Positions 12,754 through 36,606 of a DNA stretch of 64,000 nt are shown here, piece after piece (the first letter of the stretch is position 1; each line of letters begins with the position of its first letter). A program made the position numbers and the translations under genes. Below the pieces are notes generated by a model. It was not told where the DNA came from, did not search any database, and was given only the letters and a program-made list of their open reading frames with translations. The stretch is from Mitsuokella jalaludinii DSM 13811 (lineage in GTDB: Bacteria; Bacillota; Negativicutes; Selenomonadales; Selenomonadaceae), in the NCBI RefSeq assembly GCF_000702905.1, contig NZ_JNKR01000002.1, forward strand, positions 1-64,000, read 5' to 3'.

Positions 12754-13701
12754 TTGGGGAAAACAAATGTATCCTTACGAGGCAAGAACGTCCTCGGACT
12801 CGCTGACTTCTCGGCGGAGGAGATCCGTCTCGTACTCGAGACGGCCAAGGAAATGAAGAACATCATCCATCGTGACATCAAGAAAGTCCCGACGCTGCGC
12901 GGCAAGTCCATTGTCACGCTGTTCTACGAGCCGTCGACGCGCACGCGCACGTCGTTCGAGCTTGCAGGTAAGTACCTCGGCGCCGATGTCGTCAACATCA
13001 CGGCGGGCACGTCGAGCATCGTCAAGGGCGAGAGCCTGCGCGACACGCTCTACACAATCGAGGCGATGGGTGTCGACGCCATCGTCATGCGCCACAAGGC
13101 AGAGGGCGCGGCGGAGTACGCTGCGCGCGTCGTGAGCCCGGTCATCATCAACGCCGGTGACGGCGCCCACGCGCATCCGTCGCAGGGCCTGCTGAACCTC
13201 TTCACGATCGAGCAGCACAAGGGTCATCTCGAGGGCCTCAAGGTCGCCATCCTCGGCGATGTCCTGCACAGCCGCGTCGCGCGCTCCGATATCTACGGCA
13301 TGCGCAAGATGGGCATGGAAGTCCACATCGCCGGCCCGAAGACGCTCTTGCCGCGCTTCCTTTCGGAGGAGCCGGGCATCGTCGTGCACGAGCGCATCGA
13401 GGACGCCATCAAGGACGCGGACGTCATCGAAGTCCTGCGCATCCAGCTCGAGCGCATGAAGGGCGGTCTCTTCCCGACGACGCGCGAGTACGCCCGCATC
13501 TTCGGCCTCAACAATGAGCGCCTCGCCCTCGCGAAGGACGATGTGCTCGTCCTCCATCCGGGCCCGATGAATAAAGGATGGGAAATCTCGCCGTTCGTCG
13601 CGTACGGCGACAACTCCGCGATTCAGGAAGAAGTCCAGAATGGCGTAGCCGTCCGCATGGCACTCTTTACCTTGGTTCTGACGGGAGGGAAACAGGAATG
13701 A
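12754..13701 (+). CDS. pyrB: Aspartate carbamoyltransferase catalytic subunit
   Basis: Condenses carbamoyl phosphate with aspartate to N-carbamoyl-aspartate, the committed step of pyrimidine synthesis. About 315 aa, the usual length. It shows the carbamoyl-phosphate motif FYEPSTRTRTSFE at ~57, MRHKAEGAAE, the HPSQGLLNLFTIE motif (HPTQ in most homologues) and HPGPMNKG near the end. The start is taken as TTG 12754, eight bases after aaggag (12740-12745); a GTG at 12745 overlaps that site and is less likely. No regulatory chain (PyrI) is present. Its last four bases overlap pyrC (ATGA), indicating translational coupling in the operon. Confidence 0.96.
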   Translation: MGKTNVSLRGKNVLGLADFSAEEIRLVLETAKEMKNIIHRDIKKVPTLRGKSIVTLFYEPSTRTRTSFELAGKYLGADVVNITAGTSSIVKGESLRDTLYTIEAMGVDAIVMRHKAEGAAEYAARVVSPVIINAGDGAHAHPSQGLLNLFTIEQHKGHLEGLKVAILGDVLHSRVARSDIYGMRKMGMEVHIAGPKTLLPRFLSEEPGIVVHERIEDAIKDADVIEVLRIQLERMKGGLFPTTREYARIFGLNNERLALAKDDVLVLHPGPMNKGWEISPFVAYGDNSAIQEEVQNGVAVRMALFTLVLTGGKQE

Positions 13702-14984
13702 AACTGATACTCAAAGGTGGCCGGGTCATCAATCCGGCAGAGCATTTTGACGAAGTCGCTGATGTGCTGATCGAGGATGGCAAGATTGCTGCCATCGGCA
13801 AGGACCTCGCAGCTGAAGGTGCGGAAGTCTACGATGCAGCGGGCAAGCTCGTCACGCCAGGCCTCATCGACATGCACACGCACTTCCGCGAGCCAGGCCA
13901 GGAGGCCAAGGAGGACTTTGAGTCCGGCTCGAAGGCAGCAGCCGCCGGCGGCTACACGACGGTCGCGACGATGCCGAATACGAAGCCGGTCGTCGATGCG
14001 GCTGACATCGTGCGCAGCCTCCAGAAGCGCGCCGAGGACGTCGCCAAGGTCCACATCCGCATCATCGGTGCAGTGACGAAGGGCCAGAAGGGCCAGGAGC
14101 TCGCCGAGCTCGGCGACATGGTCGAGGCGGGCGCTGTCGCGTTCTCCGATGACGGCCACTTCGACCCGACGGCCAAGGTCCTCTTGAACGCCTACGACTA
14201 CCTGCACACGTTCGACAAGGTCATCATCAACCACGAGGAAGAGACGTCGCTCGTCGAGGACGGCGTCATGAATGAGGGCCACCGCAGCGCGATGCTCGGC
14301 ATGAAGGGCCGCCCGACGGTCGCCGAGGACATCGCCGTCGCCCGCGACATCCTTCTCGCGGAGTACGCCGGCGCGCGCGTCCACGTCGCCCACATCAGCT
14401 CGGGCCGCTCTGTCGACCTCGTGCGCCAGGCCAAGAAGCGCGGCGTGCGCGTCACGACGGAGGTCACGCCGCACCACCTGACGATGACGGACGAGTGCGT
14501 CAACCTCTACGACAGCTCGACGAAGACGAATCCGCCGCTGCGCACGCAGAGCGATGTCGACGCGATGGTCGAGGGCCTCAAGGACGGCACGATCGACGCC
14601 ATCGTCACGGACCACTCCCCGCACGCACAGGAGGAGAAGGACCGCGAGTACGTGTACGCTCCGAGCGGCTTCCCCGGCCTTGAGACGGCCATCGGCGTGC
14701 TCTTCACGGATCTCTGCAAGACGGGCAAGGTCGACATCCCGACGATCATCGAGAGAATGACGTGGGGCCCTGCAAAGGCCTTCAAGCTCGATGCCGGCAC
14801 GATCAACGTCGGCGCGAATGCCGATGTCACAGTCATCGACCCTGATCTTGTCTGGACGGTCGACCCGAAGAAGTTCTACACGAGAGGCAGCCATTCGCCG
14901 TTCGTCGGCCGCGAGCTCACGGGCAAGCCGGTCCTGACGATTGTCGATGGCAAGGTCGTCATGAAAGACGGCGTGGTTCTCTGA
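13698..14984 (+). CDS. pyrC: Dihydroorotase (class I, PyrC/AllB-like amidohydrolase)
   Basis: Cyclises carbamoyl-aspartate to dihydroorotate. The 428-aa protein has the zinc-binding DMHTHFREPG motif at ~57-66, the substrate Asn in MPNTKPV, the metal ligands in VINHEEE, VAHISS and VTPHHLTMTDE, and the catalytic Asp in VTDHSPHA. This is the class I form, typical of Firmicutes. ATG 13698 overlaps the pyrB stop by 4 bases; an in-frame extension upstream to 13578 lies inside pyrB and is not used. Confidence 0.96.
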   Translation: MKLILKGGRVINPAEHFDEVADVLIEDGKIAAIGKDLAAEGAEVYDAAGKLVTPGLIDMHTHFREPGQEAKEDFESGSKAAAAGGYTTVATMPNTKPVVDAADIVRSLQKRAEDVAKVHIRIIGAVTKGQKGQELAELGDMVEAGAVAFSDDGHFDPTAKVLLNAYDYLHTFDKVIINHEEETSLVEDGVMNEGHRSAMLGMKGRPTVAEDIAVARDILLAEYAGARVHVAHISSGRSVDLVRQAKKRGVRVTTEVTPHHLTMTDECVNLYDSSTKTNPPLRTQSDVDAMVEGLKDGTIDAIVTDHSPHAQEEKDREYVYAPSGFPGLETAIGVLFTDLCKTGKVDIPTIIERMTWGPAKAFKLDAGTINVGANADVTVIDPDLVWTVDPKKFYTRGSHSPFVGRELTGKPVLTIVDGKVVMKDGVVL

Positions 14985-15001
14985 TTAGTGAGGTGTTTTG
15001 A

Positions 15002-16075
15002 GTGAAAGGAAAATTGATCCTGGAAGACGGCAGCGTATTCCACGGGGAACTCTTGAATAATATCAAGGCAACGGGTGAAGTTGTCTTCAATACCGGCATG
15101 GTCGGCTATCAGGAAAGCCTGACGGACCCGTCCTACTGCCGCCAGATCCTGACGCTGACCTACCCGATGGTCGGCAACTACGGCATCGCTGACATCTTCA
15201 TGCAGTCGCGCAAGTCGTTCGTCAATGGCTTCGTCATCGGCGAGCTCTGCGAGCACGGCAGCAACTGGCACTATGAGACAAGCCTCGCGGACTTTCTGAC
15301 AAAACAGGGCGTCCCGTGCCTTTACAACGTCGACACGCGCGCTGTCACGCGCAAGATCCGCAATGCCGGCACGATGAAAGGCATCATTGTCTCCGAGGAT
15401 GCCGCGCAGACGGAGATCGACGAGCTCTTCGCCGTGCCCATCAAGAAGGACGTCGTCATGGAAGTCACGACGCCTGAGGCCTACACGCTCGAGAGCGAGA
15501 AGGAAGACGCGCCGTTTGTCGTCGCGATGGACTTCGGCGTCAAGCAGAACATCATCAAGTCGATGCACGACCTCGGCTTCAAGATCACGGTCGTTCCGGC
15601 TCACACGACGGCAGAGGAAGTGCTCGCCATGAACCCGGACGGCGTCTTCCTCTCGAACGGCCCTGGCGACCCGGCTGACGTGCCGGAGATCGTCGAAGAG
15701 GTCAAGAAGCTCATCGGTAAGAAGCCGATCTTCGGCATCTGCCTCGGCCATCAGCTCTTGGCGCTCGCGATGGGCGCGAAGACCTACAAGCTCAAGTTCG
15801 GCCACCGCGGCACGAACCAGCCGGTCAAGGACCTGCGCACGGGCAATGTCTACATCTCCTCGCAGAACCACGGCTACGCCGTCGACGAAGAATCCCTCAA
15901 GGACCTGCCGCTGACGGTCACGCACATCAATGTCAACGACGGCACGGTCGAGGGCATGCGCCACAATACGCTTCCGATCTTCTCCGTGCAGTATCATCCG
16001 GAAGCAGCGCCTGGCCCAGACGACAACATGTACCTGTTCGACGAGTTCTGGGCAATGCTGAAGAAAGGGGAATGA
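15002..16075 (+). CDS. carA: Carbamoyl-phosphate synthase small (glutamine amidotransferase) subunit
   Basis: Hydrolyses glutamine and channels ammonia to CarB. 357 aa, the normal length. It consists of an N-terminal CPSase small-chain domain ([27 protein letters not shown]) and a class I GATase domain with [10 protein letters not shown], the nucleophile in [12 protein letters not shown], and the His/Glu pair in [11 protein letters not shown]. It starts at GTG 15002 behind aggtg (14991-14995), 17 bases after pyrC. Four bases separate it from carB. The gene's placement inside the pyr operon suggests carbamoyl phosphate from this enzyme is dedicated mainly to pyrimidines, though arginine use is not excluded. 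Confidence 0.97.
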
Positions 16076-24559: not shown

Positions 24560-25339
24560 ATGAAAATGGAGATGGAAATGGAACGAGGCAGATGTGGGGC
24601 AGCCACCAAAAGAAACGGCCGGACGTGGCTGTGTGACGAGTTTCCTGTTGATGTTCCTTCGGGCGCGGAATCAATGCGCGGCATTGTCCTGCATGCGCCA
24701 GAGCCACGCGCTTTGCTCGTGCAGCCCGTCGGGCAGGAAGAGATTGTTGCGCGCAAGGGGCTCTTTGAGGAAGTCAGCGCCATTGCCGCTGCTGTTAGCA
24801 TGCCGCTGGCTGTCGCCTTCCTTGCCGTCGAGGACTGGAACCAGCAGCTTTCCCCGTGGCAGGCGCCCGCCGTCTTCGGCAAGCAGGACTTTGGCGCAGG
24901 GGCAGAGGAGACGCTGAAGTCCATCGAGGCCATCCTGCCCGCGCTTAAGAGCCATTGTGCTCTGGCAGAGGATGCGCCCGTCGTACTCGGTGGCTACTCC
25001 CTCGCCGCGCTCTTCTCACTCTGGAGCGCCTATGAAAGCACCTCGTTCGACGCCATTGCCGCCGCATCGCCGTCCGTCTGGTTCCCCGGCTGGCTCGACT
25101 ACGCCAAAGCCCGCGAGCCAAAGGCAGGCATCATCTACCTGAGCCTCGGCGACCGCGAAGACAAGACCCGCAACCCCGTCATGCGCACCGTCAGCACCTG
25201 CATCGAGGAGCAGCACGCCCTGCTGCAAGATGCCGGCATCAAGACAACCCTCACCTGGAACCCCGGCAACCACTTCCAGCATCCCGAACAACGCTGTGCC
25301 AAAGGCTTCACCTGGTGCCTGGAGCAACTTTTTCGATAA
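24560..25339 (+). CDS. Alpha/beta-hydrolase-fold esterase-like protein
   Basis: A 259-aa cytosolic protein (no signal peptide) with the nucleophile elbow GGYSLAALFSLW (G-x-S-x-A) at about residue 141, a downstream Asp candidate (LSLGDREDKT) and a His candidate in NPGNHFQHPE, consistent with a Ser-Asp-His triad. It resembles the small esterase/IroE-type hydrolases by the GYSLAG-like elbow and the SPSVWFPG segment. The substrate is unknown. ATG 24560 follows aaggag (24543-24548); GTG 24548 abuts that site and is unlikely. There is no close co-directional neighbour. Confidence 0.8.
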   Translation: MKMEMEMERGRCGAATKRNGRTWLCDEFPVDVPSGAESMRGIVLHAPEPRALLVQPVGQEEIVARKGLFEEVSAIAAAVSMPLAVAFLAVEDWNQQLSPWQAPAVFGKQDFGAGAEETLKSIEAILPALKSHCALAEDAPVVLGGYSLAALFSLWSAYESTSFDAIAAASPSVWFPGWLDYAKAREPKAGIIYLSLGDREDKTRNPVMRTVSTCIEEQHALLQDAGIKTTLTWNPGNHFQHPEQRCAKGFTWCLEQLFR

Positions 25340-25514
25340 ATTGACGTGCTGGATTGGTTCATGCAAGTATCCTGATGAAGAAAATTGCCAATCCGTGCAA
25401 TAGGGTTTAAAATAGATAAACATAGAGATTCCCAGTGGCAGGCTTCTGCGTGGTTTGCTGCTGCTCAAGAATTTTGGATAGGGTCAATTGGTGCGTAAAG
25501 GAAAAGGTGAAAAC

Positions 25515-25895
25515 ATGGCAAGACAGTCTTATTTGGAACACAGCGCCGTGACGGTGCGAGATATTGAATGGTCCAAAAATTTTTTTGAGAAAATCCTTGG
25601 CATGACAGAAACGCGCCGCAAGGAAAAAGATGGTCATCTCAAGATGGTCTGGCTCAAGGGTGGCGTGCAGCTTGTGGCCGCGCCAGAAGACTATAAAGCG
25701 GGACAGGGACATCATCTCGGCATCGTTGTCGAGGATATGCCCGAAGTCCTCAGGGAAATGCTTGCTGTCAAGGGTGTCCATCACATCGAGGGCAAGCCCG
25801 AAAAATGGGTGCAGCTGCCCGACGGCCTGACGCTCGAGCTGTTCCAGGAAAAGCCCGGTGCTATCCAAAACGTGCTGAATATCGAGGTAAAATAA
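25515..25895 (+). CDS. VOC (glyoxalase/bleomycin-resistance) family protein
   Basis: A 126-aa protein with two beta-alpha-beta-beta-beta halves. The opening LEHSAVTVRDIEWSKNFFEKILGM is the standard VOC start with a His metal ligand. GHHLGIVVEDMPEVLREM begins the second half, and QLPDGLTLELFQ supplies the C-terminal Glu ligand. Members are lyases, dioxygenases or binding proteins; the sequence does not say which. ATG 25515 follows aaggtg at 25504-25509. It is single and has no obvious terminator of its own. Confidence 0.88.
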   Translation: MARQSYLEHSAVTVRDIEWSKNFFEKILGMTETRRKEKDGHLKMVWLKGGVQLVAAPEDYKAGQGHHLGIVVEDMPEVLREMLAVKGVHHIEGKPEKWVQLPDGLTLELFQEKPGAIQNVLNIEVK

Positions 25896-25999
25896 AGCGT
25901 AGACAGAGCAGCCGTTCTGCAGGCGGCCCTGCTCGTGAATGACGTCTGCGCGCAGAAGGTCTGACGAGGCCGATACTGAAAGCGTTGCAGCATAAATAA

Positions 26000-26035
26000 G
26001 GGGGAGTGAAAAAATGATTTTTCACTCCCCCGGTC
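26000..26035 (+). repeat. Palindromic repeat, copy 1
   Basis: A 14-bp stem (gggggagtgaaaaa / tttttcactccccc) with an ATGA loop, followed by ggtc. A second copy at 26697-26730 has one base pair fewer in the stem but the same loop and the same trailing ggtc. The two copies flank the gene at 26272. The 25896-26271 stretch has no gene; apart from this copy it holds the hairpins listed next. Confidence 0.85.
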
Positions 26036-26058
26036 AGTGGTCAGTGGCCGAAGGAACC

Positions 26059-26114
26059 GATTTGCTGTTGGCAAATCGGGTGGAATCGTAGGGGCGGGTC
26101 GGCGTGACCCGCCC
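26059..26114 (+). repeat. Two adjacent intergenic hairpins
   Basis: gatttgc/gcaaatc (26059-26065 with 26071-26077) is followed by gggcgggtc/gacccgccc (26092-26100 with 26106-26114). The GC-rich second hairpin looks like a dispersed intergenic repeat; it lacks a T-run and is not a typical terminator. Confidence 0.55.
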
Positions 26115-26271
26115 GGTGCACAGTGGAATAAGCCGAGTAGCCAGCATTTTTAGACTAAAAAATAAGAAAACTTAGCCTTGTCATTTTTTTTTTGCTGGCG
26201 TAAAATAAAATAGGCAATGATGGAATCATTTTTGTTTGCATCATAATTGATGATGAGGAGGTTGTTGGTGT

Positions 26272-26679
26272 ATGAAACATTGGGAAAGAGTGGCTTTGAC
26301 TTGTGTATTGGGGACCGGGATCTTCTTCGGGGTCGGGGGTATGGCCCCCAATTCGTTGGTAACGCTGCAGCCGGTTCCTGTGGCGGAAGCAGCTGCGGAT
26401 ACCTGGCTGGCATCCGATGGCTCCACCCAGTATTACCTGAAGGGTGGCACGCTGCAATATCGGCAGCCCACTAGGGATATGCGTTTATCGGGGGCCTACA
26501 GCTTCCGGGCACGGATCGCCATCGTTTATGAGGACGGCAGTGCAGAAGTGCATAATATCCGTATGGCCAGCAAAGGGGCGTTGGGATTGTCCATCGACGG
26601 CGGCCCCATGGAACTGGTAGATTCTGATTCTGTGTATGCAGAGATCTACCATACCATTGTGAACCGGTACATCCAGTAA
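26272..26679 (+). CDS. Hypothetical small exported protein
   Basis: A 135-aa protein of unknown function. The N terminus is a signal peptide: MKHWERV, then a hydrophobic core (ALTCVLGTGIFFGVGG), with a likely cleavage after VAEAAA near residue 42. The mature ~93 residues contain DTWLASDGSTQYYLKGG and SFRARIAIVYEDGSAEVHNIRM, a beta-rich pattern reminiscent of small periplasmic proteins of Negativicutes; this comparison is loose. ATG 26272 follows aggagg (26254-26259). The gene is flanked on both sides by copies of the same palindrome. Confidence 0.7.
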   Translation: MKHWERVALTCVLGTGIFFGVGGMAPNSLVTLQPVPVAEAAADTWLASDGSTQYYLKGGTLQYRQPTRDMRLSGAYSFRARIAIVYEDGSAEVHNIRMASKGALGLSIDGGPMELVDSDSVYAEIYHTIVNRYIQ

Positions 26680-26696
26680 AAGGGAATGCAAAAAAG

Positions 26697-26730
26697 GGGG
26701 GAGTGAAAAATGATTTTCACTCCCCCGGTC
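26697..26730 (+). repeat. Palindromic repeat, copy 2
   Basis: A 13-bp stem (gggggagtgaaaa / ttttcactccccc) with an ATGA loop and trailing ggtc. It begins 17 bases after the stop of the gene at 26272 and may act as its terminator. Confidence 0.85.
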
Positions 26731-26871
26731 GCGAGTCGCGCAGGTCGCGGGTTGCGAGCCTTGTAAGGTGGTATCCGTTAGGTAGTTTTTTGTCAAAACT
26801 TGGAATTACCACTACTTTTAGATTATCCGTACAATCTTTCAATCTGCACGAACAAGCCCGCGACTCGCGAC
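26728..26871. repeat. 144-bp MITE-like element with 13-bp inverted ends
   Basis: Perfect inverted ends gtcgcgagtcgcg (26728-26740) and cgcgactcgcgac (26859-26871) enclose ~118 bases with no ORF. It lies between palindrome copy 2 and the left end of the IS1182-type element. Confidence 0.55.
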
Positions 26872-26910
26872 AAAAGGGGCTGTGAAATAATAGCTCCATG
26901 AAAACGAAAG

Positions 26911-26945
26911 GGACTTTCGATTCTTGTGAATCGAAAGTCCTTTTT
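26911..26945 (+). terminator. Hairpin blocking read-in at the IS left end
   Basis: The stem ggactttcgattc (26911-26923) with gaatcgaaagtcc (26928-26940), a TTGT loop and TTTTT form a textbook terminator upstream of the transposase. Confidence 0.75.
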
Positions 26946-26965
26946 CGTGTTAGAATTTAACTGCT

Positions 26966-28438
26966 ATGAAAAACCTAACTGTGTATTATGGTACTCCCAA
27001 ACAGGGAATTTTACCAGCATTTTTTTCTGAGTGCCTGGATATCACAGATCCGGTTTTCACATTTGACAGATTTATGGAGGAAATCGATTTACGCAAATAT
27101 CTGAGCAAACTTCCTGCTCATGAGTTGGGAAGAATCAGATATAATCCCATCAATATGTTGAAAACGGTTCTGTTCGGGTTTATGGATGAAGGATGCATCT
27201 CTCTCAGAAAGCTGGAAGACAATTGCAAAGTCAATATCCGCTATAAATACCTTATGGACGGTAAACACCCGTCCTATCGGACTTTCGGATATTTCATCAA
27301 TACTGTCCTGATGAATCAAGCTGAATCGCTCTTTTATGAAATTACCCAAGAAATCATCACCAAAGAGCATGTGGACCTGGACCACCTCTATATCGATGGC
27401 TCCAAATTCGAAGCCAATGCCAACAAGTACTCCTGGGTCTGGAAAAAAGGTACGGAGAAATCGAGATTCCGGCTGTTTGCCAAAATCTCAGCACTCCTGG
27501 AAGAAATCAACGAGATGCTGAGCTGTGGTGGACTGAAAGCCGAAATCAATTCAGAATATGCTCCTGAATATCTGGAGCTCATCCTGAGCAAACTTCACGA
27601 AATCTGGGAACTGGACGAGGAAAGATTTGCCCATGGCAAAGGACACCATAAGAGTCCGGAACAGCGGAATTACGAAAAACTAAAAGTGTATCTGCAGAAA
27701 CTTAAGGAATATGGAAAGAAATTGAGTATCTGTGGAGAGAATCGTAATAGCTATTCTAAAACGGATCATTCAGCTACGTTTATGCGGATTAAGAGAGACT
27801 ACATGGGAAACGACCAGCTGCTGCCGGCATATAACGTCCAAGTTGGCATAGCTGATGAATACATAGCAGTCCTTGACGTAAACCAGTACAGATCAGATAT
27901 GGACTGCTTCGTTCCCCTTCTGGAAAAGTTTTATGAGCACCATAGGATCTATCCGAAATATCCAGTAGCTGACGCAGGGGATGGTTCATTCAATAACTAT
28001 CTGTACTGCAGCGAACATGGGATGGAAGCCTGTATGAAATTCTCCATGTTCTTCAAAGAAACGACGGATAAGAAGTATCACGAGGACCCATTCCGTGCGG
28101 TTAATTTCAAGACGACGGTTGATGGAGCGTTGCTCTGTCCCAATGGAAAGAAGTTCAAATTCGTCTACAGGAAAAACATTCAAGGCAACCAATATGGCCG
28201 TCAGGAAGAAATCTATGAATGTGAGGACTGCAATGGCTGTCCTTATGCAGAACGTTGCAAGAAAACACCTCATAACAGACGGATCAGCCTGAATCGTGAA
28301 CTTACAAAGGTCTATGCTGACGTCATCGGACGATTGACAGATATCCGCGGATTTCTGCTGAGAAGGAACCGTGCTATCCAGGCAGAAGGTACTTTCGGAG
28401 TGATGAAGAACGATCGGGAATATGACCGGATTGTCTGA
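26966..28438 (+). CDS. IS1182-family DDE transposase, truncated by an in-frame UGA
   Basis: A 490-aa transposase. It has the N-terminal domain FFSECLDITDPVFTFDRFMEEIDL, the catalytic residues DGSKFEANANKYSW (first Asp, ~146), VADAGDGSFNNY (second Asp) and AEGTFGVMKND (Glu), and a Cys cluster YECEDCNGCPYAERCKK before the last catalytic residue. The frame stops at TGA 28436-28438 after DREYDRIV. The same frame then continues for 34 codons (RGMDSVKMEVFLVSIGFNLYKYHRKQQ...) to TAA 28541-28543, and those codons match the conserved C terminus of the family. A single CGA-to-TGA change is the simplest explanation. The copy may be inactive, although all three catalytic acids remain. No ribosome binding site is evident at ATG 26966. 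Confidence 0.85.
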   Translation: MKNLTVYYGTPKQGILPAFFSECLDITDPVFTFDRFMEEIDLRKYLSKLPAHELGRIRYNPINMLKTVLFGFMDEGCISLRKLEDNCKVNIRYKYLMDGKHPSYRTFGYFINTVLMNQAESLFYEITQEIITKEHVDLDHLYIDGSKFEANANKYSWVWKKGTEKSRFRLFAKISALLEEINEMLSCGGLKAEINSEYAPEYLELILSKLHEIWELDEERFAHGKGHHKSPEQRNYEKLKVYLQKLKEYGKKLSICGENRNSYSKTDHSATFMRIKRDYMGNDQLLPAYNVQVGIADEYIAVLDVNQYRSDMDCFVPLLEKFYEHHRIYPKYPVADAGDGSFNNYLYCSEHGMEACMKFSMFFKETTDKKYHEDPFRAVNFKTTVDGALLCPNGKKFKFVYRKNIQGNQYGRQEEIYECEDCNGCPYAERCKKTPHNRRISLNRELTKVYADVIGRLTDIRGFLLRRNRAIQAEGTFGVMKNDREYDRIV

Positions 28439-28636
28439 AGAGGCATGGATTCAGTGAAAATGGAAGTTTTTCTGGTTTCTATTGGCTTCAACCTGTACAA
28501 ATACCATAGGAAGCAGCAGGTACATATGGATATGGCAGCTTAATTTTAAAAAGCTGAGTTTTGGGGGAAAGGGGGAAGTATACCCTTTTTCTCTTGCTTT
28601 TTACTGCCAGGAGTAAAAAGAGACAACAAAAAAGGA

Positions 28637-28670
28637 GCTGTGAAGAAATGAATCCTCATTTCTTCACAGC
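28637..28670 (+). terminator. Terminator-like hairpin at the IS right end
   Basis: The stem gctgtgaagaaatga (28637-28651) with tcatttcttcacagc (28656-28670) is perfect over 15 bp and includes part of the terminal inverted repeat. Confidence 0.65.
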
Positions 28671-28723
28671 CCCTTATTTTCGTTTTCCGGGCCGGACAAT
28701 GGGGAACTTGCAGCCTGTATTCA

Positions 28724-29272
28724 TCAGGCTGCTGTGGAGGTAGCGGCCTTTTTGGCTGCCGCCTGCGGGAACTGCTCGGGCAGGAAGCGCAGCAGGGGCC
28801 GGTAGACCATGAGGAAGAGGCCGACTTCCATGGGATAGCAGAGGAGGTTCTTGATGAGGCGGCTCAGGAAGATGGCCGAGGCGGCTTTGTGGTAGAAGAT
28901 GGTCAGCCAGAGCGTGTTGAGTCCCAAGTGGATGAAGACCATGACGAGGAAGAAGGGAATGCAGGCGCGCAACAGTGTGACGTGCCGGCGGTAGAAGAAC
29001 CAACCGTAGATGTAGCCTGTGAGGAAGCCGGAGACGAGGAAGCCCGGGAAGAAGATGCTCGTGCCGAGCAGTGCCGTGCCGATGAAGTCGGCGGCCGCGG
29101 CGACGAGGCCGGCCTTCATGGGGCCGTACATCGCACCGTAGATGGCGATTGGCAGGAAGCCGAAGGTGATGCGCACGAAGATCGTCTGGATGGCAAAGAC
29201 GTAGGAGAAGAGTACCGCCAGGGCCACGGAGACACCGGCGTAGACGAGTGGCTTGACAGAGAATCTGGACAT
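28724..29272 (-). CDS. folT: Folate-family ECF transporter S component
   Basis: A 182-aa membrane protein with about six hydrophobic segments (AGVSVALAVLFSYVFAIQ, FLPIAIYGAMYGPMKAGLVA, FIGTALLGTSIFFPGFLVSG, FFLVMVFIHLGLNTLWLTIF and others). It is the substrate-binding S subunit of an energy-coupling-factor transporter and would dock on a shared EcfA/A'/T module encoded elsewhere. Folate specificity is supported by the THF riboswitch directly upstream. The start is ATG 29272 behind ggaaaggaaggt. A gcagcctg/caggctgc hairpin overlaps its stop codon. Confidence 0.88.
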   Translation of the reverse strand: MSRFSVKPLVYAGVSVALAVLFSYVFAIQTIFVRITFGFLPIAIYGAMYGPMKAGLVAAAADFIGTALLGTSIFFPGFLVSGFLTGYIYGWFFYRRHVTLLRACIPFFLVMVFIHLGLNTLWLTIFYHKAASAIFLSRLIKNLLCYPMEVGLFLMVYRPLLRFLPEQFPQAAAKKAATSTAA

Positions 29273-29516: not shown

Positions 29517-29557
29517 CAGTAGCATCGACAGATGAGTTTTCATTTATCTAGATATAT

Positions 29558-29600
29558 AAGAGCCGTCGACAAATACTGTGATGGTGTCGAAGGCTCTTTT
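29558..29600 (+). terminator. Terminator-like hairpin at the left border of the AT-rich island
   Basis: aagagcc (29558-29564) pairs with ggctctt (29592-29598), with a gtcgaca/tgtcga inner helix and TTTT following. No plus-strand gene ends here; it may insulate the island from outside transcription. Confidence 0.55.
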
Positions 29601-29677
29601 GTGATGCACCCTTATAATTGAGAAATGAGATCAATTAGTGTAATTTTATAATGAATTTGTATAAAAGCAGGATTTTA

Positions 29678-29739
29678 TAGATCAATATCGAATCAAGATC
29701 TAAGTAAAAGAATAAGATCGAGAGTAAGAGAGTAAGATC
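29678..29739 (+). repeat. Four AGATC direct repeats in the island's upstream region
   Basis: agatc occurs at 29679, 29696, 29715 and 29735, i.e. 17, 19 and 20 bases apart. The last three are extended to aagatc and two lie in gtaa-rich copies of a longer unit. The near two-turn spacing would place them on one DNA face, as in an operator. The rest of 29601-29810 is AT-rich with no gene. Confidence 0.4.
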
Positions 29740-29825
29740 ATTTGAATCAGAGTCAATCTTGGTAGCTACTTCATAGGAGAGGAAGTACTTCAAAGTAGTC
29801 CATTGATTGCAGGAGGAGGGGATAG

Positions 29826-30476
29826 ATGATGTCATACGAAGATGTCTTGCGGGGACTATTCCTAGACGATGCAACTCCGTCGGGCAGACTGGAGCCAGAT
29901 CAGATTCGGTCGACGATAGCACAGACTCCTGTATCAGAGATTGTATACTTCTTGCAAAAGCATCAGGATGAATTATCTGATGTCAGTGCCAAAAATATTC
30001 CACAATTTAGTAATATCGATGAGGTAGACAAGGTATTGTCAATCATCATTGACTCTGGGCTAGATAAAGTTGATTTTTTATTAATCGGCTCCTATCTTAA
30101 ACAAGATAGGGCAAAAGATATGGCATATCGTAAATATGGAGAGAATCATTATAAACTCTGTGCTCAGCTTGGGTTTGTACTTAATCCGCCGCAATTTCAG
30201 GCTACGAGAAATGGATATGCTTATCATAGAGAAAATGATAAAGCATTAAAAATGATATGGTTTGCCAAAATGATACTACATGTACCAATTGTTCAACAAG
30301 CTATTTTTAAAGTGATGAAGGATGATACACCTTTTTCAATACGAGAATATATGGGTGTTTTTTTATCTAAAAGTACGGTTATTCGTCGATTGTCAAATAT
30401 GAAGAAATTATTTCAGATTTTAAATGAATATAGTGACGAAATAGCACGTGTATGGATTACACGAATCAATTTTTGA
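29826..30476 (+). CDS. Island gene A: unrecognised protein with winged-helix-like segments
   Basis: A 216-aa protein that I cannot assign to a named family. It is helical throughout. A central block reads MAYRKYGENHYKLCAQLGFV, a wording seen in small helix-turn-helix-type domains near restriction and ATPase genes. A C-terminal block SIREYMGVFLSKSTVIRRLSNMKKLFQIL also looks like a DNA-binding or scaffold helix pair. There are no catalytic motifs, signal peptide or membrane segments. The start is ATG 29826 (or 29829) after aggaggagggg, a very strong site. It is first in a five-gene set, 10 bases before gene B. A specificity or regulatory role is inference. Confidence 0.75.
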   Translation: MMSYEDVLRGLFLDDATPSGRLEPDQIRSTIAQTPVSEIVYFLQKHQDELSDVSAKNIPQFSNIDEVDKVLSIIIDSGLDKVDFLLIGSYLKQDRAKDMAYRKYGENHYKLCAQLGFVLNPPQFQATRNGYAYHRENDKALKMIWFAKMILHVPIVQQAIFKVMKDDTPFSIREYMGVFLSKSTVIRRLSNMKKLFQILNEYSDEIARVWITRINF

Positions 30477-30486
30477 GGGAAGAAAA

Positions 30487-32643
30487 ATGGAGTATTCAAA
30501 ATTATCATATCCAGATATGCTTATAAAATCGAGTTATGATACAATTCAAGATGATTTACTTGTAGATTTCTATATTCCTGTCTTGGAACATGCTAAACGT
30601 TATGACCGTATCTCAGGCTTTTTCTCGTCGACTTCTTTAGCTATAGCAGCTCGTGGAATAGCAGGATTAATCCGAAATAAAGGGAAAATGCGTCTCTTGA
30701 CTTGTCAGAAACTTAGTAAAGATGATATAAATGAAATTCAAAAATATGTACGTCATGCTGATAGTTTAATTGGAGAAAAAATGATCAGTGAGATGGATGA
30801 TGTTGAAGATACATTTAAAAGAGATCACGTTGTTGCGCTAGGATATATGTTACAACAGGGGTACCTCGAGATGAAAATTGCTGTTCTTTATGATGCAGAT
30901 ACAGAGAGCAGAAGAGTCGGTTCATTAAAGAATGCTATACTACATCAAAAAATCGGTATCCTATATGATTCCAATTTTCATGGTATTTCATTTAGTGGTT
31001 CAAACAATGAAAGTGCAACTGGTTGGCTTGAGAATATTGAGGAATTTAAAACATTCAAAAGTTGGAAGGAGGGGCAAAAGGAATATTTCATGGAAGATCG
31101 TAACCGTTTCGAACGTCTATGGAATTTAGAAAATGACAAACATACCGGAATGTACGTTATGGATTTGCCTAATGCAGTCAAACAGCATTTTTTAGAAATA
31201 TCGAATGATTTCAGATTGGATAATATATCCACAAGGGAATATTTAAAGCAAAATAAACAAACATTTTTGATCAAAGAAGGAAATAGTAAAAAAGAACAGC
31301 TTTCACTTTATTATTATCAAAAGTGCGCTGTTAATCAGTGGATCGAAAATGGTCATAAACTAATGTTGCAAATGGCTACGGGTACAGGTAAAACACGAAC
31401 AGCTTTCGGCTGTATGGAATGTGCATGCCGTGATATAGAGTCTGGACTGATAATTGTCGTTGCAACGCCGCAAATTACATTGACGCGCCAATGGATAAAA
31501 GACATGGAAAAGCTTCAGTTAGATATCGATGAATACATTGAGGTCGACGGAACGATTCATGATTGGCGTATCAATATGAGAAAAAGTCTACAACGTGTTT
31601 ATATAGGCCAATACAATCATTTTGTAATTTTTACAACTCATGATACGGCTTCAAACGAAGATTTTATTGATATTTTACAGGCATATGGCCCAGGGTTTAC
31701 TATCTTCTTCATTGGTGATGAAGTACATGGAATGGGAGCTAATAAAACACGAAATGCATTGCAACCTAAATACAAATATCGCTTAGGATTGAGCGCTACA
31801 CCAAAACGATGGTTTGATGATGAGGGCAGTCATCTGTTAGAAGAGTATTTTGGAAATAAATCATTCAATTTTGGGCTACGTGAAGCATTAGAAAGTGTCA
31901 ACCCAAGAACTAATCTTCCTTTTTTAGCTAATTACTATTATTATCCGTGCTTTATTTCCCTGACATATGACGAATTAGAAAAATATAGAGAGTTATCACA
32001 AAAAATATCTCGCTTATCGCATAATAAGGATTCTGACCTAAATGAATTGCGAACACGCTTTTTGATGAGACGAGCAGAAATTCTTAAAAATGCAGAAAAC
32101 AAATACCAGAAACTGCATGATATTTTAGGAAAACTTGGTCCAAGTATTCAGGATACAATAATTTTTGTATCCCCACAACAAATTGATAAAGTTATGATGA
32201 TTTTACGAGAGCACAACATCTTAGCGCATCGTATCACGGAAAAAGAGTCACAGCATAAATCTAATAAATATAGTGGATTATCTGAGAGGGAATATATCAT
32301 CAAACAGTTTGAAACAGGATCATATCAAGTTATTGTAGCAATTAAATGTATGGACGAAGGAATTGACATTCCATCTGCACGTTGCGGAATTATTATGGCG
32401 AGTAGTACAAACCCTCGAGAGTATGTGCAACGTATTGGTAGGATTATACGCCAAGATGGGCATAAGAGCTTTGCAACACTATATGATATGGTTGTTGAGC
32501 CAGGACATGATATTATACAAGATGAAGATTTGAAAAAAATCGAAAAGAGAGTTTATGAAAAGGAGATGACACGAATAAGCGATTTATCAGAAGAAGCAAT
32601 AAATAGGGCACAAGTAGTTTGTGAAGTCTATCAGCATCGATGA
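30487..32643 (+). CDS. Island gene B: PLD-like nuclease fused to SF2 DEAD/DEAH helicase
   Basis: A 718-aa fusion. The N-terminal ~200 residues form a phospholipase-D-like (HKD) domain: YDRISGFFSSTSLAIAARGI, then LHQKIGIL at ~152 (H-x-K) and SFSGSNNESATGW. The C-terminal two-thirds is a superfamily 2 helicase with Walker A ATGTGKTRTA at ~297, DEVH at 411, LSATPKR, and motif VI in YVQRIGRIIRQ. Only one HKD half is seen, so the nuclease would need to dimerise (family knowledge). Similar PLD-helicase fusions occur in anti-phage systems. ATG 30487 follows gaggga; an upstream in-frame ATG at 30448 lies inside gene A. It overlaps gene C by 4 bases (ATGA). Confidence 0.88.
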   Translation: MEYSKLSYPDMLIKSSYDTIQDDLLVDFYIPVLEHAKRYDRISGFFSSTSLAIAARGIAGLIRNKGKMRLLTCQKLSKDDINEIQKYVRHADSLIGEKMISEMDDVEDTFKRDHVVALGYMLQQGYLEMKIAVLYDADTESRRVGSLKNAILHQKIGILYDSNFHGISFSGSNNESATGWLENIEEFKTFKSWKEGQKEYFMEDRNRFERLWNLENDKHTGMYVMDLPNAVKQHFLEISNDFRLDNISTREYLKQNKQTFLIKEGNSKKEQLSLYYYQKCAVNQWIENGHKLMLQMATGTGKTRTAFGCMECACRDIESGLIIVVATPQITLTRQWIKDMEKLQLDIDEYIEVDGTIHDWRINMRKSLQRVYIGQYNHFVIFTTHDTASNEDFIDILQAYGPGFTIFFIGDEVHGMGANKTRNALQPKYKYRLGLSATPKRWFDDEGSHLLEEYFGNKSFNFGLREALESVNPRTNLPFLANYYYYPCFISLTYDELEKYRELSQKISRLSHNKDSDLNELRTRFLMRRAEILKNAENKYQKLHDILGKLGPSIQDTIIFVSPQQIDKVMMILREHNILAHRITEKESQHKSNKYSGLSEREYIIKQFETGSYQVIVAIKCMDEGIDIPSARCGIIMASSTNPREYVQRIGRIIRQDGHKSFATLYDMVVEPGHDIIQDEDLKKIEKRVYEKEMTRISDLSEEAINRAQVVCEVYQHR

Positions 32644-32837
32644 AAGAAGATGAAATAATGAGCGTGACAATAAATAAAAATATTACAGATAAGATAGCTA
32701 AAAAAACAACAGAAGATAAAATGATGAAAAAATTTCTCTTGGAAATTTTACAAATAGAAGCTGAGCATAAACAGTTTAAAAAGAATTACCTACCAAAGAT
32801 TGAAAAATATGCACGTGAATATAAGGGGAAATTGTAA
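32640..32837 (+). CDS. Island gene C: 65-aa charged peptide
   Basis: A short, lysine- and glutamate-rich, probably helical protein (DKIAKKTTEDKMMKKFLLEI ... HKQFKKNYLPKIEKYAREYKGKL) of unknown function. It starts at ATG 32640, overlapping the helicase stop, and its TAA overlaps the ATG of the next gene (TAATG). An internal ATG 32658 is an alternative start. The double overlap makes it a genuine member of the operon rather than a chance ORF. Its small size and position between helicase and ATPase suggest a bridging subunit (inference). Confidence 0.7.
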   Translation: MKEDEIMSVTINKNITDKIAKKTTEDKMMKKFLLEILQIEAEHKQFKKNYLPKIEKYAREYKGKL

Positions 32838-34816
32838 TGCGTATTAATTATCTTCAATTAAAGAATTTTCGTCAATATAAAGACATGAAAATCGAATTTA
32901 AGAAAAATGATAAAGGTGACCTTCATATTTTTATTGCTAATAATGGCTCAGGAAAAACTAATATCATGAATGCAATAAGTTGGTGCCTATATCAAAGAGA
33001 TCTTGATGGACATCAGAGAAAAGATAAATTACCTGATTTTAATCTAAGGGCTGCAAAAGAAGCTGAAGAGGCAGGTGAAGATCACATCGATATTTCAGTA
33101 GAAGTTCAGATTGAAAGCTGTGGCGAAGTTTATACAATTACACGGATGCAGCACGTTGTTTTACCAAGTGAATTTGCTCAGAAGCCATCTCTTAAAATTA
33201 TTTATCAAAAAAAAGGAGAAACCAAGATTATTGAAGGTGATAACCAGCAAAAGGAAGCAGATGAAATAATACAGGATATTCTCCCTCAAGCAATTTCTCA
33301 ATACTCATTTTTTGATGGCGAAACATTGCAGAACTATTTTAACGATAATAAGAATAGCAGTGTAAAAGATGCCATCAATAAAATGGCACAGATTAATGTC
33401 GTAAAAGATGCAGAAAATCATTTAGATAATTTAATTAAAGATAAAGAGATAGCTGCTTCAAAATTAGACCCAGACATTGATTATTATAAGAAAAAATTAG
33501 ACAAAGACATTGAATCGAAAAATCAGTATGATACAATAATAAGTGAGCTTTTAAATAACATATCTTTTGCGGAGAAAAGAAAACGAGAACTTGATCAAGC
33601 AATTGCTGGAAATGAACATATTAGTGATATAGATGCAGAGAAAAAACGTACTGAAAATATACTTGAAGATTTAAAAGTTGATGCACAGAAATTCACTGAT
33701 GAATTGAACGCTTTTTTCCGTAAATCATATATTGAGCTTGCCTTAAAAGATACATTACAGGAAGTAAATAGATATATTAATGAAAAAAGTGAATACCTTC
33801 CTGTAAAAGGATTTTCTCAAGAAATGCTGGAAAGATGTCTTGATGATGATGAGTGTCAGTTATGTCACTCTCATTTAACAAAACAAGCTCAAAATATAAT
33901 TCAACAATTACTGCGACGATATGAACTAGCTCCAGTAGGTACACAGACACTTCTTAAGATTCAACCTCAAATAGAATCTATGTGTCATGATATTAACTTA
34001 TATTCAGAAAAAGAAAGAGAATTTAATCAAAAGGATATTGATTACGACAAAAAAATTAATAGTCTAGAGGACCAAAAAGCAGAATTAGAGAGTCGTTTAA
34101 ATCAGGTATCAAATGTTGAAGATATTGAGGCATGGATAAAAGAACGTCGTTTGCATGAAGATAGTATCAAGCATGATAGCGAAAAGAAAGGAGAATATGT
34201 TGCACAATTAAACGAGTTAAGAAAAAGTATTGAAAAAGATCAAAAGGATTTAGAAACAGCCGAGAAGGCTAATATTCAGCAAAACACCTTGTACAGTGAA
34301 CTTAATTTTATGCGTAGAGCAAGAAATGTATTAGGAGATGTCGAGAGGGAAATTGTCGGTGAAATTCGTGACAAAACAACAGCTGAAACAAAAAAATACT
34401 TTGACGAACTAGCATATAAGACGCAGACGTTTGGCAATATTTCAATCGATGAGAATTATCAATTAACAGTCTATCATAAACAGACAGATCCAAATGGTAA
34501 AATGCGGTCTATGCTCGGAAGCTTAAGTGCAGCAGAAAAGGAATTACTGGCATTAGCATTTACTTTAGCAATCTTGAAGGTGTCTGGATATGACTCCATG
34601 CTTGTCATTGATACACCAGTTGGTCGTGTTGATGACAATAATCGTAGAAATTTTGCACATTGCCTTGTCGAGGTAAGTAAGAAAAAACAATTGATTTTGT
34701 TCTTTACAAAAACGGAATATGATAGCGAAATTGCTCAAGAATTCGACCCAGTAGCAGCTACAAATAAAAGAATCCAGATGTCATCGAACGAAGAAGAGAG
34801 TTTATTGGAGGACTAA
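32837..34816 (+). CDS. Island gene D: Rad50/DndD-like ATPase with zinc hook
   Basis: A 659-aa SMC-type ATPase. The N terminus reads MRINYLQLKNFRQYKD, then Walker A NNGSGKTN at ~35-42. Two long coiled-coil stretches flank a CQLC hook (Cys 340 and 343). The ABC signature LSAAEKELLALA lies at ~563 and Walker B MLVIDTPVGRVDD at ~588. The TPVGRVD ending and overall size are closest to DndD and AAA_23-type proteins rather than true Rad50. In phosphorothioation systems DndD couples ATP hydrolysis to DNA handling (family knowledge). No DndB/DndC partner lies nearby, so the role here is probably different. The start overlaps gene C. Confidence 0.88.
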   Translation: MRINYLQLKNFRQYKDMKIEFKKNDKGDLHIFIANNGSGKTNIMNAISWCLYQRDLDGHQRKDKLPDFNLRAAKEAEEAGEDHIDISVEVQIESCGEVYTITRMQHVVLPSEFAQKPSLKIIYQKKGETKIIEGDNQQKEADEIIQDILPQAISQYSFFDGETLQNYFNDNKNSSVKDAINKMAQINVVKDAENHLDNLIKDKEIAASKLDPDIDYYKKKLDKDIESKNQYDTIISELLNNISFAEKRKRELDQAIAGNEHISDIDAEKKRTENILEDLKVDAQKFTDELNAFFRKSYIELALKDTLQEVNRYINEKSEYLPVKGFSQEMLERCLDDDECQLCHSHLTKQAQNIIQQLLRRYELAPVGTQTLLKIQPQIESMCHDINLYSEKEREFNQKDIDYDKKINSLEDQKAELESRLNQVSNVEDIEAWIKERRLHEDSIKHDSEKKGEYVAQLNELRKSIEKDQKDLETAEKANIQQNTLYSELNFMRRARNVLGDVEREIVGEIRDKTTAETKKYFDELAYKTQTFGNISIDENYQLTVYHKQTDPNGKMRSMLGSLSAAEKELLALAFTLAILKVSGYDSMLVIDTPVGRVDDNNRRNFAHCLVEVSKKKQLILFFTKTEYDSEIAQEFDPVAATNKRIQMSSNEEESLLED

Positions 34817-34818
34817 CG

Positions 34819-35265
34819 ATGAGTAATGATGCTTTTACAGATAAAAATAGTGGACGTATCCCATTATGTGTTGAAGAAGATATAAATCAATTTTTTGATG
34901 ATCTTGATAAGGTTGCCTTCTTTTCGAAAGTACGGAGATTAGACCTGTTTATATTAGCTGTAGCAATTGGTTATCGTCAAAAAGAAAGGACACCACTTAA
35001 AAATTCCCATGGAATTATCCGTGCAGAATATATTCTTGATAATTCCGATGCTTTAGCGATTATTCAGGCAATACATATAGATGAATTACGAAAGAATGCT
35101 CAAGAGGATAAAATTGATGACCTTTCTGAAGCGTATCGAATTGCAAACGAATATGCGAATACAGGATTTCATCGCTTAAAAGAAGAACTTGAGTCATCTG
35201 CTTTTGATTCAGAATCAATACAGCTTTCTTTTCGTGCAGCTTGCAAAGAAATGTCCATGAAATAA
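34819..35265 (+). CDS. Island gene E: 148-aa helical protein of unknown function
   Basis: It starts three bases after gene D (ATG 34819) and ends at a terminator, so it is the last gene of the set. It contains VEEDINQFFDDLDKVAFFSKVRRLDLFILAVAIGYRQK, then NSHGIIRAEYILDNSDALAI and a helical C-terminal half. There are no catalytic motifs. Its place after a DndD-like ATPase mirrors that of the small protein DndE, but I see no convincing DndE sequence signature. Treat as an unassigned accessory subunit. Confidence 0.72.
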   Translation: MSNDAFTDKNSGRIPLCVEEDINQFFDDLDKVAFFSKVRRLDLFILAVAIGYRQKERTPLKNSHGIIRAEYILDNSDALAIIQAIHIDELRKNAQEDKIDDLSEAYRIANEYANTGFHRLKEELESSAFDSESIQLSFRAACKEMSMK

Positions 35266-35291
35266 AAGAGCGGCCATTAGGCCGCTCTTTT
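35264..35291. terminator. Bidirectional terminator between convergent island genes
   Basis: A perfect 12-bp stem aaaagagcggcc (35264-35275) / ggccgctctttt (35280-35291) with an ATTA loop. It has an A-run on one side and a T-run on the other, so it can stop transcription from both directions. Confidence 0.9.
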
Positions 35292-35306
35292 ACTTGATAT
35301 CAAATC

Positions 35307-36482
35307 TTAAGGATTAAATTGATCCCAACGTATATCGTAATACTTTTTTGCAATTTCTGGCCAGTCATGCTCAAATTCGCGCATGTAGCGAACTGTAGAA
35401 CTGTGTTCGCCATTGGCTAGACAATATTCACGATAGCTTTTTTTCTTGAAGAAGGAAGGCTGGTTGCACCAACGTGCTAGATTAATGTAGGTACCACGAT
35501 ACTTACTGTTCTTGTAAAGCTCATGACGCATGATGTAGGGGAGTGCACGGTGTTTCATCAAGACCGTAATTCGCATGAAGGCGCTTTCGATATCATTTTG
35601 ATCCTGTGAATCCCATCCTACTAAGACATACAACTTTGGTATCTTATCGTTATGACGTCGCCAGCAATCTAATCCTTTTTCAATAGAGGGACGCTCCTCT
35701 GGATGATCAAAAGCAAAGATATAATCACCGTAGTAATGAGCTTCGTTGAGCACTTTTGCTTTTTCGTCAGTCATCAAACGGATGTCCATGCCCTGACGAA
35801 ATTGGAAACGCTTGCCAGTTTCAGCAAGTTCTTCGAAGACCTGCCGCCAGTTACCGTCCGGATGATTTGGATCATGGGTATATGCTAAGATATTATCATC
35901 CCAAAGATAAATCATCTTGCGCGTAGGATCAAGCCATTCTGATATATGAGAATGAAAACGAACGCCGCAGCTATTTTCATTCACACAGAATTTACAATGA
36001 CGGAAACAACCTCTCGTGGCAAAACCAATGCTGAAATCAAGATAATCCTTGTATTTAATTGGCTTGATTCCGCGTGTGATTTCTTTTTCTACATACCGAT
36101 CATATAAGTGATAATCTGGCATATGATGCTCAATCACATTGGGTAAAGTTCTGATAACACCCCGCCTCTCAATGGTTTCTGCGGGCAGATTACTGCCGCC
36201 TGGAGGGAAGGCAATAAAACTATCAGGGAAGCCTGTTCCACCATAGCTGACATTGTGAAGATCAAGAACACCTTCTGGAATTCTAGTGAAGTCGAATACC
36301 TTAGCAATAAAAATATGATCATATTCTTTTGCGTGATATAATAAGTCTTCCCAGCTGTCAATTAGTAAAACCGTGTCTCCCTGAGCGCGATACCATCCAG
36401 CTAGTTTCAGGCAAACAAGATTGGGGTGCCTAGTGCCGTTATCCAATAAATCGGCATCAACGATACCTATTATCTTCTTCAT
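35307..36482 (-). CDS. Radical SAM protein with cobalamin-binding-like N-terminal domain
   Basis: A 391-aa protein. Residues ~1-130 resemble the Rossmann-like B12-binding domain that precedes many radical SAM domains (IIGIVDADLLDNGTRHPNLV ... GDTVLLIDSW), but the cobalamin DxHxxG motif is not evident. The radical SAM core has the [4Fe-4S] motif in RGCFRHCKFC (Cys 159, 163, 166), then IYLWDDNILAY and FRQGMDIRLMTDEKA. The C terminus is rich in aromatic and basic residues. The reaction is unknown. ATG 36482 lies behind aaaggtg and a near-consensus promoter. It shares the AT-rich composition of the island and converges on gene E. Confidence 0.85.
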   Translation of the reverse strand: MKKIIGIVDADLLDNGTRHPNLVCLKLAGWYRAQGDTVLLIDSWEDLLYHAKEYDHIFIAKVFDFTRIPEGVLDLHNVSYGGTGFPDSFIAFPPGGSNLPAETIERRGVIRTLPNVIEHHMPDYHLYDRYVEKEITRGIKPIKYKDYLDFSIGFATRGCFRHCKFCVNENSCGVRFHSHISEWLDPTRKMIYLWDDNILAYTHDPNHPDGNWRQVFEELAETGKRFQFRQGMDIRLMTDEKAKVLNEAHYYGDYIFAFDHPEERPSIEKGLDCWRRHNDKIPKLYVLVGWDSQDQNDIESAFMRITVLMKHRALPYIMRHELYKNSKYRGTYINLARWCNQPSFFKKKSYREYCLANGEHSSTVRYMREFEHDWPEIAKKYYDIRWDQFNP

Positions 36483-36519
36483 GACTCTAAAACACCTTTC
36501 ATTATAATATTATTGTTTT

Positions 36520-36548
36520 ATTATAGATCATATTCATAGGTCGGTCAA
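36520..36548 (-). promoter_or_regulatory. Promoter of the radical SAM gene
   Basis: On the minus strand: TTGACC (36548-36543), a 17-base spacer and TATAAT (36525-36520), one mismatch from consensus overall. This predicts strong expression. Confidence 0.8.
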
Positions 36549-36606
36549 GATCATTATAATGTTCCAACTATCGGAATATTGTGCTTTTCACAGACTATAC
36601 AACATA

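Follow-up and report, generated by a model that had tools for sequence, protein, structure and literature searches.

The window analysed here comprises positions 1 to 64,000 (forward strand) of contig NZ_JNKR01000002.1 from Mitsuokella jalaludinii DSM 13811, a member of the Bacillota, and it contains a compact, AT-rich locus in which a restriction module of the PbeABCD type is joined to a radical SAM enzyme and to a putative winged-helix protein (wH). This combination is undescribed in the literature searched and recurs in unrelated genomes. It probably carries out modification-dependent restriction, with PbeABCD served by a radical SAM DNA-modifying enzyme (rsm, a working name) that replaces phosphorothioation in providing the self-mark. 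The proposal draws on the identities of the genes and their physical linkage, the fusion of two of them elsewhere, their transfer in one insert, the replacement of one partner by another among related loci, and the presence of phage copies beside DNA-modification genes. A stronger form, which we put forward tentatively, holds that wH guides a radical SAM enzyme of cobalamin type, which installs a new DNA modification, and that the phage copies act in counter-defence.

A PbeABCD module and its partners in one insert

A preliminary description of positions 29826–35265 had proposed an undescribed five-gene defence system that fits none that could be named. As a five-gene system this candidate is rejected because genes 2–5 (30487–35265) are, judged by their sequences, the pbeA, pbeB, pbeC, and pbeD genes of the PbeABCD (CxC-DndE) system, in that order; profile searches with PADLOC and NCBIfam match them to this named module. 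The claim of novelty holds for the larger combination of wH, PbeABCD, and radical SAM. Much of the original layout was reproduced, including the five open reading frames on the plus strand, their spacings of +10, −4, −1, and +2 bases, and a GC content of 32–35% across the operon against 55–65% in most of the window. The two terminator hairpins, placed earlier at 29558–29600 and 35264–35291, form stable folds. The first, on the plus strand at 29553–29606 (−20.3 kcal/mol), carries a T-run and lies inside the insert, 5′ of the operon; the second, a perfect palindrome at 35262–35294 (−22.4 kcal/mol), is a putative bidirectional terminator that separates pbeD from the convergent rsm gene.

The unit does not, however, end at 35265 as had been supposed. 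A same-genus genome, G144, retains the empty site, in which window positions 29519 and 36604 join positions 11816 and 11861 of its locus L183 (blastn) and are only 45 bp apart. Because this site is empty, the insert, whose span of about 29520–36603 (7.1 kb) also follows from the GC profile, can be seen to consist of wH, pbeABCD, and rsm, with no other sizeable content. The empty site and the AT-rich composition bear out the suspicion of a horizontally acquired defence locus. The additional gene, rsm (35307–36482, minus strand; 391 amino acids), is convergent with pbeD and lies 41 bases past its end; a promoter-like site, TTGACC-17-TATAAT, at 36520–36548 on the minus strand is the region's best in a consensus scan and may serve it. 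G144 carries an Ssp-type Pbe locus of its own (L046) at another place.

The first gene of the restriction module, pbeA (30487–32643, plus strand; 718 amino acids from its ATG), encodes an HKD (PLD) nuclease-like domain fused to an SF2 helicase. Its product matches the PADLOC PbeA model at 7e-214 over residues 10–709, and the NCBIfam model TIGR04095 ("DNA phosphorothioation system restriction enzyme") at 3.6e-107, under the model cut-off. The motifs HQK(x5)D...GSNN, GTGKT (Walker A), DEVH, and QRIGRIIR are intact, and the HKD signature persists in nearly every locus examined. Mokosh type II was considered for this gene and rejected, the PADLOC PLD_Helicase match being only 1.3e-12 and partial, and the NF042964 score falling far below its cut-off (79 versus 1100 bits).

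Overlapping pbeA by four bases, pbeB (32640–32837, plus strand) encodes a charged protein of 65 amino acids that has no family match in PADLOC, Pfam, or NCBIfam profile searches; its assignment to PbeB, a fast-evolving small protein encoded between pbeA and pbeC, follows from position and size. It is 33% identical (E 3e-6) to its counterpart in the viral contig L088, and weak homologues of 49–68 amino acids occupy the equivalent place in related loci. The product of pbeC (32837–34816, plus strand; 659 amino acids) is an ABC ATPase of the DndD/CxC clade whose full-length PADLOC PbeC match (2.3e-67) outscores every DndD model; the DndD-like TIGR03185 is matched at 2.5e-40, under its cut-off, and the motifs GSGKT, CQLC, LSAAE, and LVIDTP are intact. 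On these points the original reading, which named a PLD-helicase, a small charged peptide, and a DndD-like ATPase with a zinc hook, was right. The last gene, pbeD (34819–35265, plus strand; 148 amino acids), encodes a probable DndE-like protein that matches TIGR04062 (dnd_assoc_4, "DNA phosphorothioation-associated protein 4") at 7.4e-11 (42 bits, cut-off 74) and has homologues in the equivalent place elsewhere; phmmer found no match for it in the PDB.

The four restriction genes resemble those of the DndCDEA-PbeABCD system of Haloterrigena jeotgali (PMC6459918) in order and size (its PbeB has 66 and its PbeD 152 amino acids). Unlike that system, the window unit has no DndA, DndC, DndD, or DndE, and it has radical SAM and winged-helix proteins. 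It also resembles the CxC-DndE set, comprising an HKD-SF2 protein, a small protein, a CxC ABC ATPase, and a DndE cognate (Rakesh, Aravind, & Krishnan, 2024; PMC10853773), and differs in the zinc hook, which is CxxC and not CxC in most loci of the window's clade. Mostly CxxC hooks are found in the PbeC proteins that accompany radical SAM and wH (L001–L007, L033, and L088), as in the CQLC of the window, and CxxC appears as well in the Ssp-type PbeC of L086 and L087; L077, a member of the window's clade, has a CEC hook. PbeC proteins of phosphorothioation-linked loci mostly have CxC (L034–L052 compared).

As first described, PbeABCD depends on phosphorothioation by DndCDEA (Xiong, 2019; PMC6459918). 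The genome that harbours the window (2.41 Mb, 99.99% complete) contains no match to the DndC model TIGR03183, even at E ≤ 1; in other PbeA loci, this model picks up SspD-like enzymes, divergent as they are, with E 1e-5 to 1e-12. No methylase partner was seen among the open reading frames inside or directly around the insert. The earlier remark that methylase and PAPS reductase are absent was correct, but it missed the likely replacement, the radical SAM gene in the same insert.

Recurrence of the set and replacement of the partner

Homologues of these genes co-occur well beyond Mitsuokella. In seven Bacteroidales genomes (L001–L007), a single radical SAM-wH open reading frame of 704 amino acids (850 in L001) lies directly upstream of pbeA. 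Its N-terminal 400 amino acids are the radical SAM protein, rsm being 43–44% identical to the N-terminal half of such fusions, and its C-terminus is matched by wH residues 49–204 (28–33% identity, E 1e-11 to 1e-15, blastp). The PbeA proteins of these genomes are 43–44% identical to that of the window. The viral contig L088 likewise encodes a radical SAM-wH fusion (632 amino acids), followed by pbeA, pbeB, pbeC, and pbeD. Among Bacillota, G133 has radical SAM, wH, and pbeABCD in this order, the first two as separate adjacent genes upstream of pbeA, with a radical SAM protein 54% identical to rsm; G825, from the window's own family, has the order radical SAM, wH, pbeA, pbeC, pbeD, and its PbeB was not detected by search. 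When a wH profile was run against 398 Bacillota genomes, clear matches came only from the window genome and G133, both of which have the full set; a third match was partial and weak.

Neighbouring genes were tabulated for PbeA loci in the same draw of 398 Bacillota genomes (PbeA in 22 genomes, 21 loci readable) and in a second draw from the window's own order (15 PbeA loci). The first draw yielded six loci with a radical SAM gene (the window, L033, L034, L036, L043, and L050), 12 with a phosphorothioation module, three with neither, and none with both; the corresponding counts in the second were one radical SAM, 12 phosphorothioation, and two neither. Ten of the 12 phosphorothioation loci in the first draw are Ssp-type by the genes found, and L035 and L052 carry DndC-type genes about 7–11 kb away. 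Pooling both draws (n = 36) gives seven radical SAM loci, 24 phosphorothioation loci, five with neither, and none with both (hypergeometric p 9.5e-5, shared ancestry ignored).

In the PbeA tree, the eleven wH loci constitute one clade (100/99) with L034 as its sister (100/100), and L036, L043, and L050 constitute a separate clade (98/88). At least two independent pairings with radical SAM enzymes are seen in this tree, one in the wH clade with its sister L034 and one in the L036/L043/L050 clade; the radical SAM proteins of L034, L036, L043, and L050 are distant relatives, at 24–26% identity. These data point to radical SAM enzymes as a third type of partner for Pbe, in at least two PbeA lineages. 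Replacement of the partner has a precedent, as some CxC-DndE systems swap phosphorothioation for cytosine methylases (PMC10853773).

It could be objected that PbeABCD is solitary here, whether inactive or self-sufficient, and that rsm is a passenger brought by a phage or plasmid. In the original survey, 320 of 553 PbeAC pairs were without phosphorothioation genes (dndCD), for which possible inactivity was suggested and other modifications, such as methylation, were proposed (Xiong, 2019; PMC6459918). Moreover, rsm is on the opposite strand, and its closest relative (65–69% identity) resides in a mobile element without Pbe. This account seems distinctly unlikely given that fused or adjacent genes recur in Bacteroidota, in Bacillota, and on a viral contig, that the phosphorothioation module is excluded, and that all genes arrived in one insert; the intactness of every open reading frame and catalytic motif argues against an inactive locus, and we infer that the locus is active. 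If the pairing with a radical SAM marking enzyme is functional, it would be one answer to the question of which partners "solitary" PbeABCD modules have.

Among these Bacillota, PbeABCD most often lies next to an SspABCD-type module (SspD-like PP-loop protein, SspB, SspC, and SspA), as in L037–L039, L041, L042, L044, L046, L048, L049, and L051. This arrangement is commoner here than DndCDEA-PbeABCD and is also found in most of L169–L182. These loci (10/21 and 12/15 in the two draws) have a like restriction module and directly adjacent modification genes; where they have a PP-loop SspD-like protein with SspA, SspB, and SspC, the window has radical SAM and wH. A second type of radical SAM-Pbe locus, without wH, is represented by L036 (12986–15043), L043 (3352–4836), and L050 (2977–5010), in which a radical SAM protein of 494–685 amino acids is placed after pbeD and a protein of 1121–1156 amino acids with a sigma-70 region-4-like helix-turn-helix (HTH) is encoded before pbeA; two of the three also have a GHKL ATPase. 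L040 (5141–8017), from this second clade, has the HTH protein and no radical SAM gene in the stretch read, a possible loss. In L047, which has neither partner, a 1320-amino-acid protein is encoded before pbeA and, after pbeD, a 758-amino-acid P-loop protein that weakly matches MADS mad8 (feature coordinates 4091–8053 and 12864–15140).

The radical SAM enzyme, the winged-helix protein, and phage relatives

The rsm protein belongs to the family PHROG_9298 ("radical SAM domain protein," 2.2e-43), and its CxxxCxxC motif at residues 159–166 (C159FRHCKFC166) is invariant in 29 of 29 sequences. Sequence comparison with the PDB gave nothing useful. The AlphaFold model (pLDDT 86) is of class-B radical SAM fold, and its whole-chain fold matches (VIA) are MgmA (Z 16.9), AprD4 (15.9), MiaB (15.7), RimO (14.8), and TsrM (12.7). 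In common with these enzymes and OxsB (Z 12.7–16.9), the predicted structure combines a Rossmann-like N-terminal domain with the radical SAM barrel and CxxxCxxC motif. It lacks the three N-terminal cysteines that serve the auxiliary cluster in methylthiotransferases (MiaB, RimO, and MtaB); within residues 1–150, the sole cysteine column is C24, present in 18 of 29 sequences. MiaB-type chemistry is unlikely because the methylthiotransferase triad is absent. Cobalamin-dependent transfer is possible for rsm, whose whole-chain fold matches include MgmA, TsrM, and OxsB, and a B12-binding domain (PF02310, 1.2e-12) is found in the distant Pbe-linked relative in L034.

None of the six enzymes is described as acting on DNA. 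The best structural matches are modifiers of RNA or protein, which would suit an activity of the radical SAM enzyme on tRNA, ribosomal protein, or some other part of the cell, in the manner of its structural relatives MiaB, RimO, and MgmA. We judge this very unlikely. The likeness is confined to the top level of fold, at 12–14% identity, conservation does not extend to the methylthiotransferase cysteine triad, and the genomic context is one of DNA modification and defence.

Gene 1 (29826–30476, plus strand; 216 amino acids) had been described as winged-helix-like, a view that its AlphaFold model (pLDDT 81.8) and fold matches support. It looks like a FokI/BrxA-like winged-helix domain with a putative role in DNA recognition: for residues 52–212, the best fold matches (VIA) are BrxA (Z 7.1), FokI (Z 6.7), and PaqCI (Z 5.7), and all four top structural matches (BrxA, FokI, and two PaqCI chains; Z 5.5–7.1) are defence-related DNA-binding chains. 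Unlike the recognition domains of BREX BrxA, FokI, and PaqCI, with which profile searches reveal no sequence homology, wH stands alone or is fused to radical SAM. Its sequence has nothing significant in Pfam, NCBIfam, or PADLOC, only PHROG_2285 at 0.013, and no match in plasmid and phage collections. On the viral contig L103, a wH domain is fused to an S24/LexA-like C-terminal part (13144–14310); the same contig also carries a radical SAM gene (8001–9233).

Phage members of PHROG_9298 are 38–50% identical to rsm and have no PbeABCD beside them; DNA-modification or replication genes are their usual neighbours. On viral contigs, methyltransferase motifs occur in 14 of 95 immediate neighbours (dereplicated) but, among genes at a greater distance, in only 9 of 450 (p 2e-6). 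Pfam identifies among the neighbours six C5 methylases, six N6/N4 methylases, three ParB-N proteins, and two PAPS reductases, together with single instances of Mom, thymidylate synthase, Thy1, dCMP deaminase, dUTPase, and SAM synthetase. In the annotated phage NatCom_21982, the radical SAM gene is flanked by two methylase genes, one N6/N4 and one C5, and in the prophage loci L071–L073, of one phage lineage with NatCom_21982, it lies beside a ParB-N6/N4 methylase. From this phage context, we infer that DNA is the likely substrate of rsm.

Viperins, which are radical SAM enzymes that make chain terminators in immunity, offer a precedent for another role, in which the radical SAM protein produces a small molecule with an antiviral or signalling function, as weapon or alarm, and PbeABCD responds to it. 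Such a role is rather unlikely in view of the fusion of the radical SAM protein to a DNA-recognition-like domain and its occupation of the modification module's place; the phage copies beside DNA methylases would, furthermore, be unexpected of an antiviral weapon.

Defence copies of the radical SAM gene were repeatedly exchanged with copies from phages and mobile elements. In the radical SAM tree, Pbe-linked members are scattered, with five label changes, at least four of them forced by well-supported branches. The window enzyme pairs with L069 (100/99), a copy from a mobile-element context without Pbe, and that of G825 pairs with the viral-contig copy L141 (100/100), although the PbeA proteins of the window and G825 share one clade. 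Between the system in L088 and the phage contig L089, similarity is limited to the radical SAM gene with about 210 bp of upstream sequence, where identity is 90% in DNA and 94% in protein. The plainest reading of these sequence relationships is that the radical SAM gene was replaced repeatedly and the other genes of the system stayed, which implies that the module needs a radical SAM enzyme. Close relatedness and exchange would also be consistent with a reversed, type IV-like scheme, in which phages mark their DNA and the host copy, for instance through a decoy or by processing the mark, helps wH and Pbe to recognise or attack marked DNA. That scheme appears improbable: such a system would not need a marking enzyme, and phosphorothioation-type Pbe spares marked and restricts unmarked DNA (Xiong, 2019; PMC6459918).

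Proposed mechanism and adjoining DNA

In the proposed modification-dependent restriction, wH would recognise DNA and bring the radical SAM enzyme to it, as a single polypeptide in Bacteroidales. The enzyme would then use radical chemistry to give host DNA a small mark; the likeliest reaction is a transfer, of cobalamin type or otherwise SAM-derived, to a carbon atom of a base or sugar. PbeC, the zinc-hook ATPase, and the DndE-like PbeD may scan or bridge DNA, PbeA would block or cut DNA that is unmarked, and PbeB could regulate, couple, or restrain the complex. Whether Pbe cuts is disputed: no cleavage by Pbe was seen by Xiong (2019; PMC6459918), and cleavage has been argued from the HKD domain (Rakesh et al., 2024; PMC10853773). 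A phage equipped with this radical SAM enzyme would put the mark on its own DNA and thereby evade restriction.

Several observations weigh against this proposal. PbeA loci share ancestry, and 36 loci are not 36 independent cases. The rsm gene of the window is convergent and outside the operon, and its product has no Pfam B12-binding match. The FokI and BrxA matches of wH reach moderate scores (Z about 7), and the Foldseek result by itself lacks significance (E 0.36). The phage neighbourhoods represent association and not substrate, and many derive from one phage lineage.

If rsm marks DNA, the mark would be a modification that awaits discovery, self/non-self discrimination would have a new chemistry, and the widespread phage family PHROG_9298 would be explained as an anti-restriction marker. 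No paper in the literature searched joins radical SAM with Pbe or Dnd, or with phage DNA hypermodification; an earlier mention in Krishnan (2020), the first description of CxC systems, is possible, and in PMC10853773 the term "radical SAM" appears only for a claim about DndC.

Adjoining the island is a variable zone at 25335–28726 of the window, which also differs from G144, where about 3.8 kb of other DNA is found; the zone includes a transposase-like open reading frame of 490 amino acids at 26966–28438.

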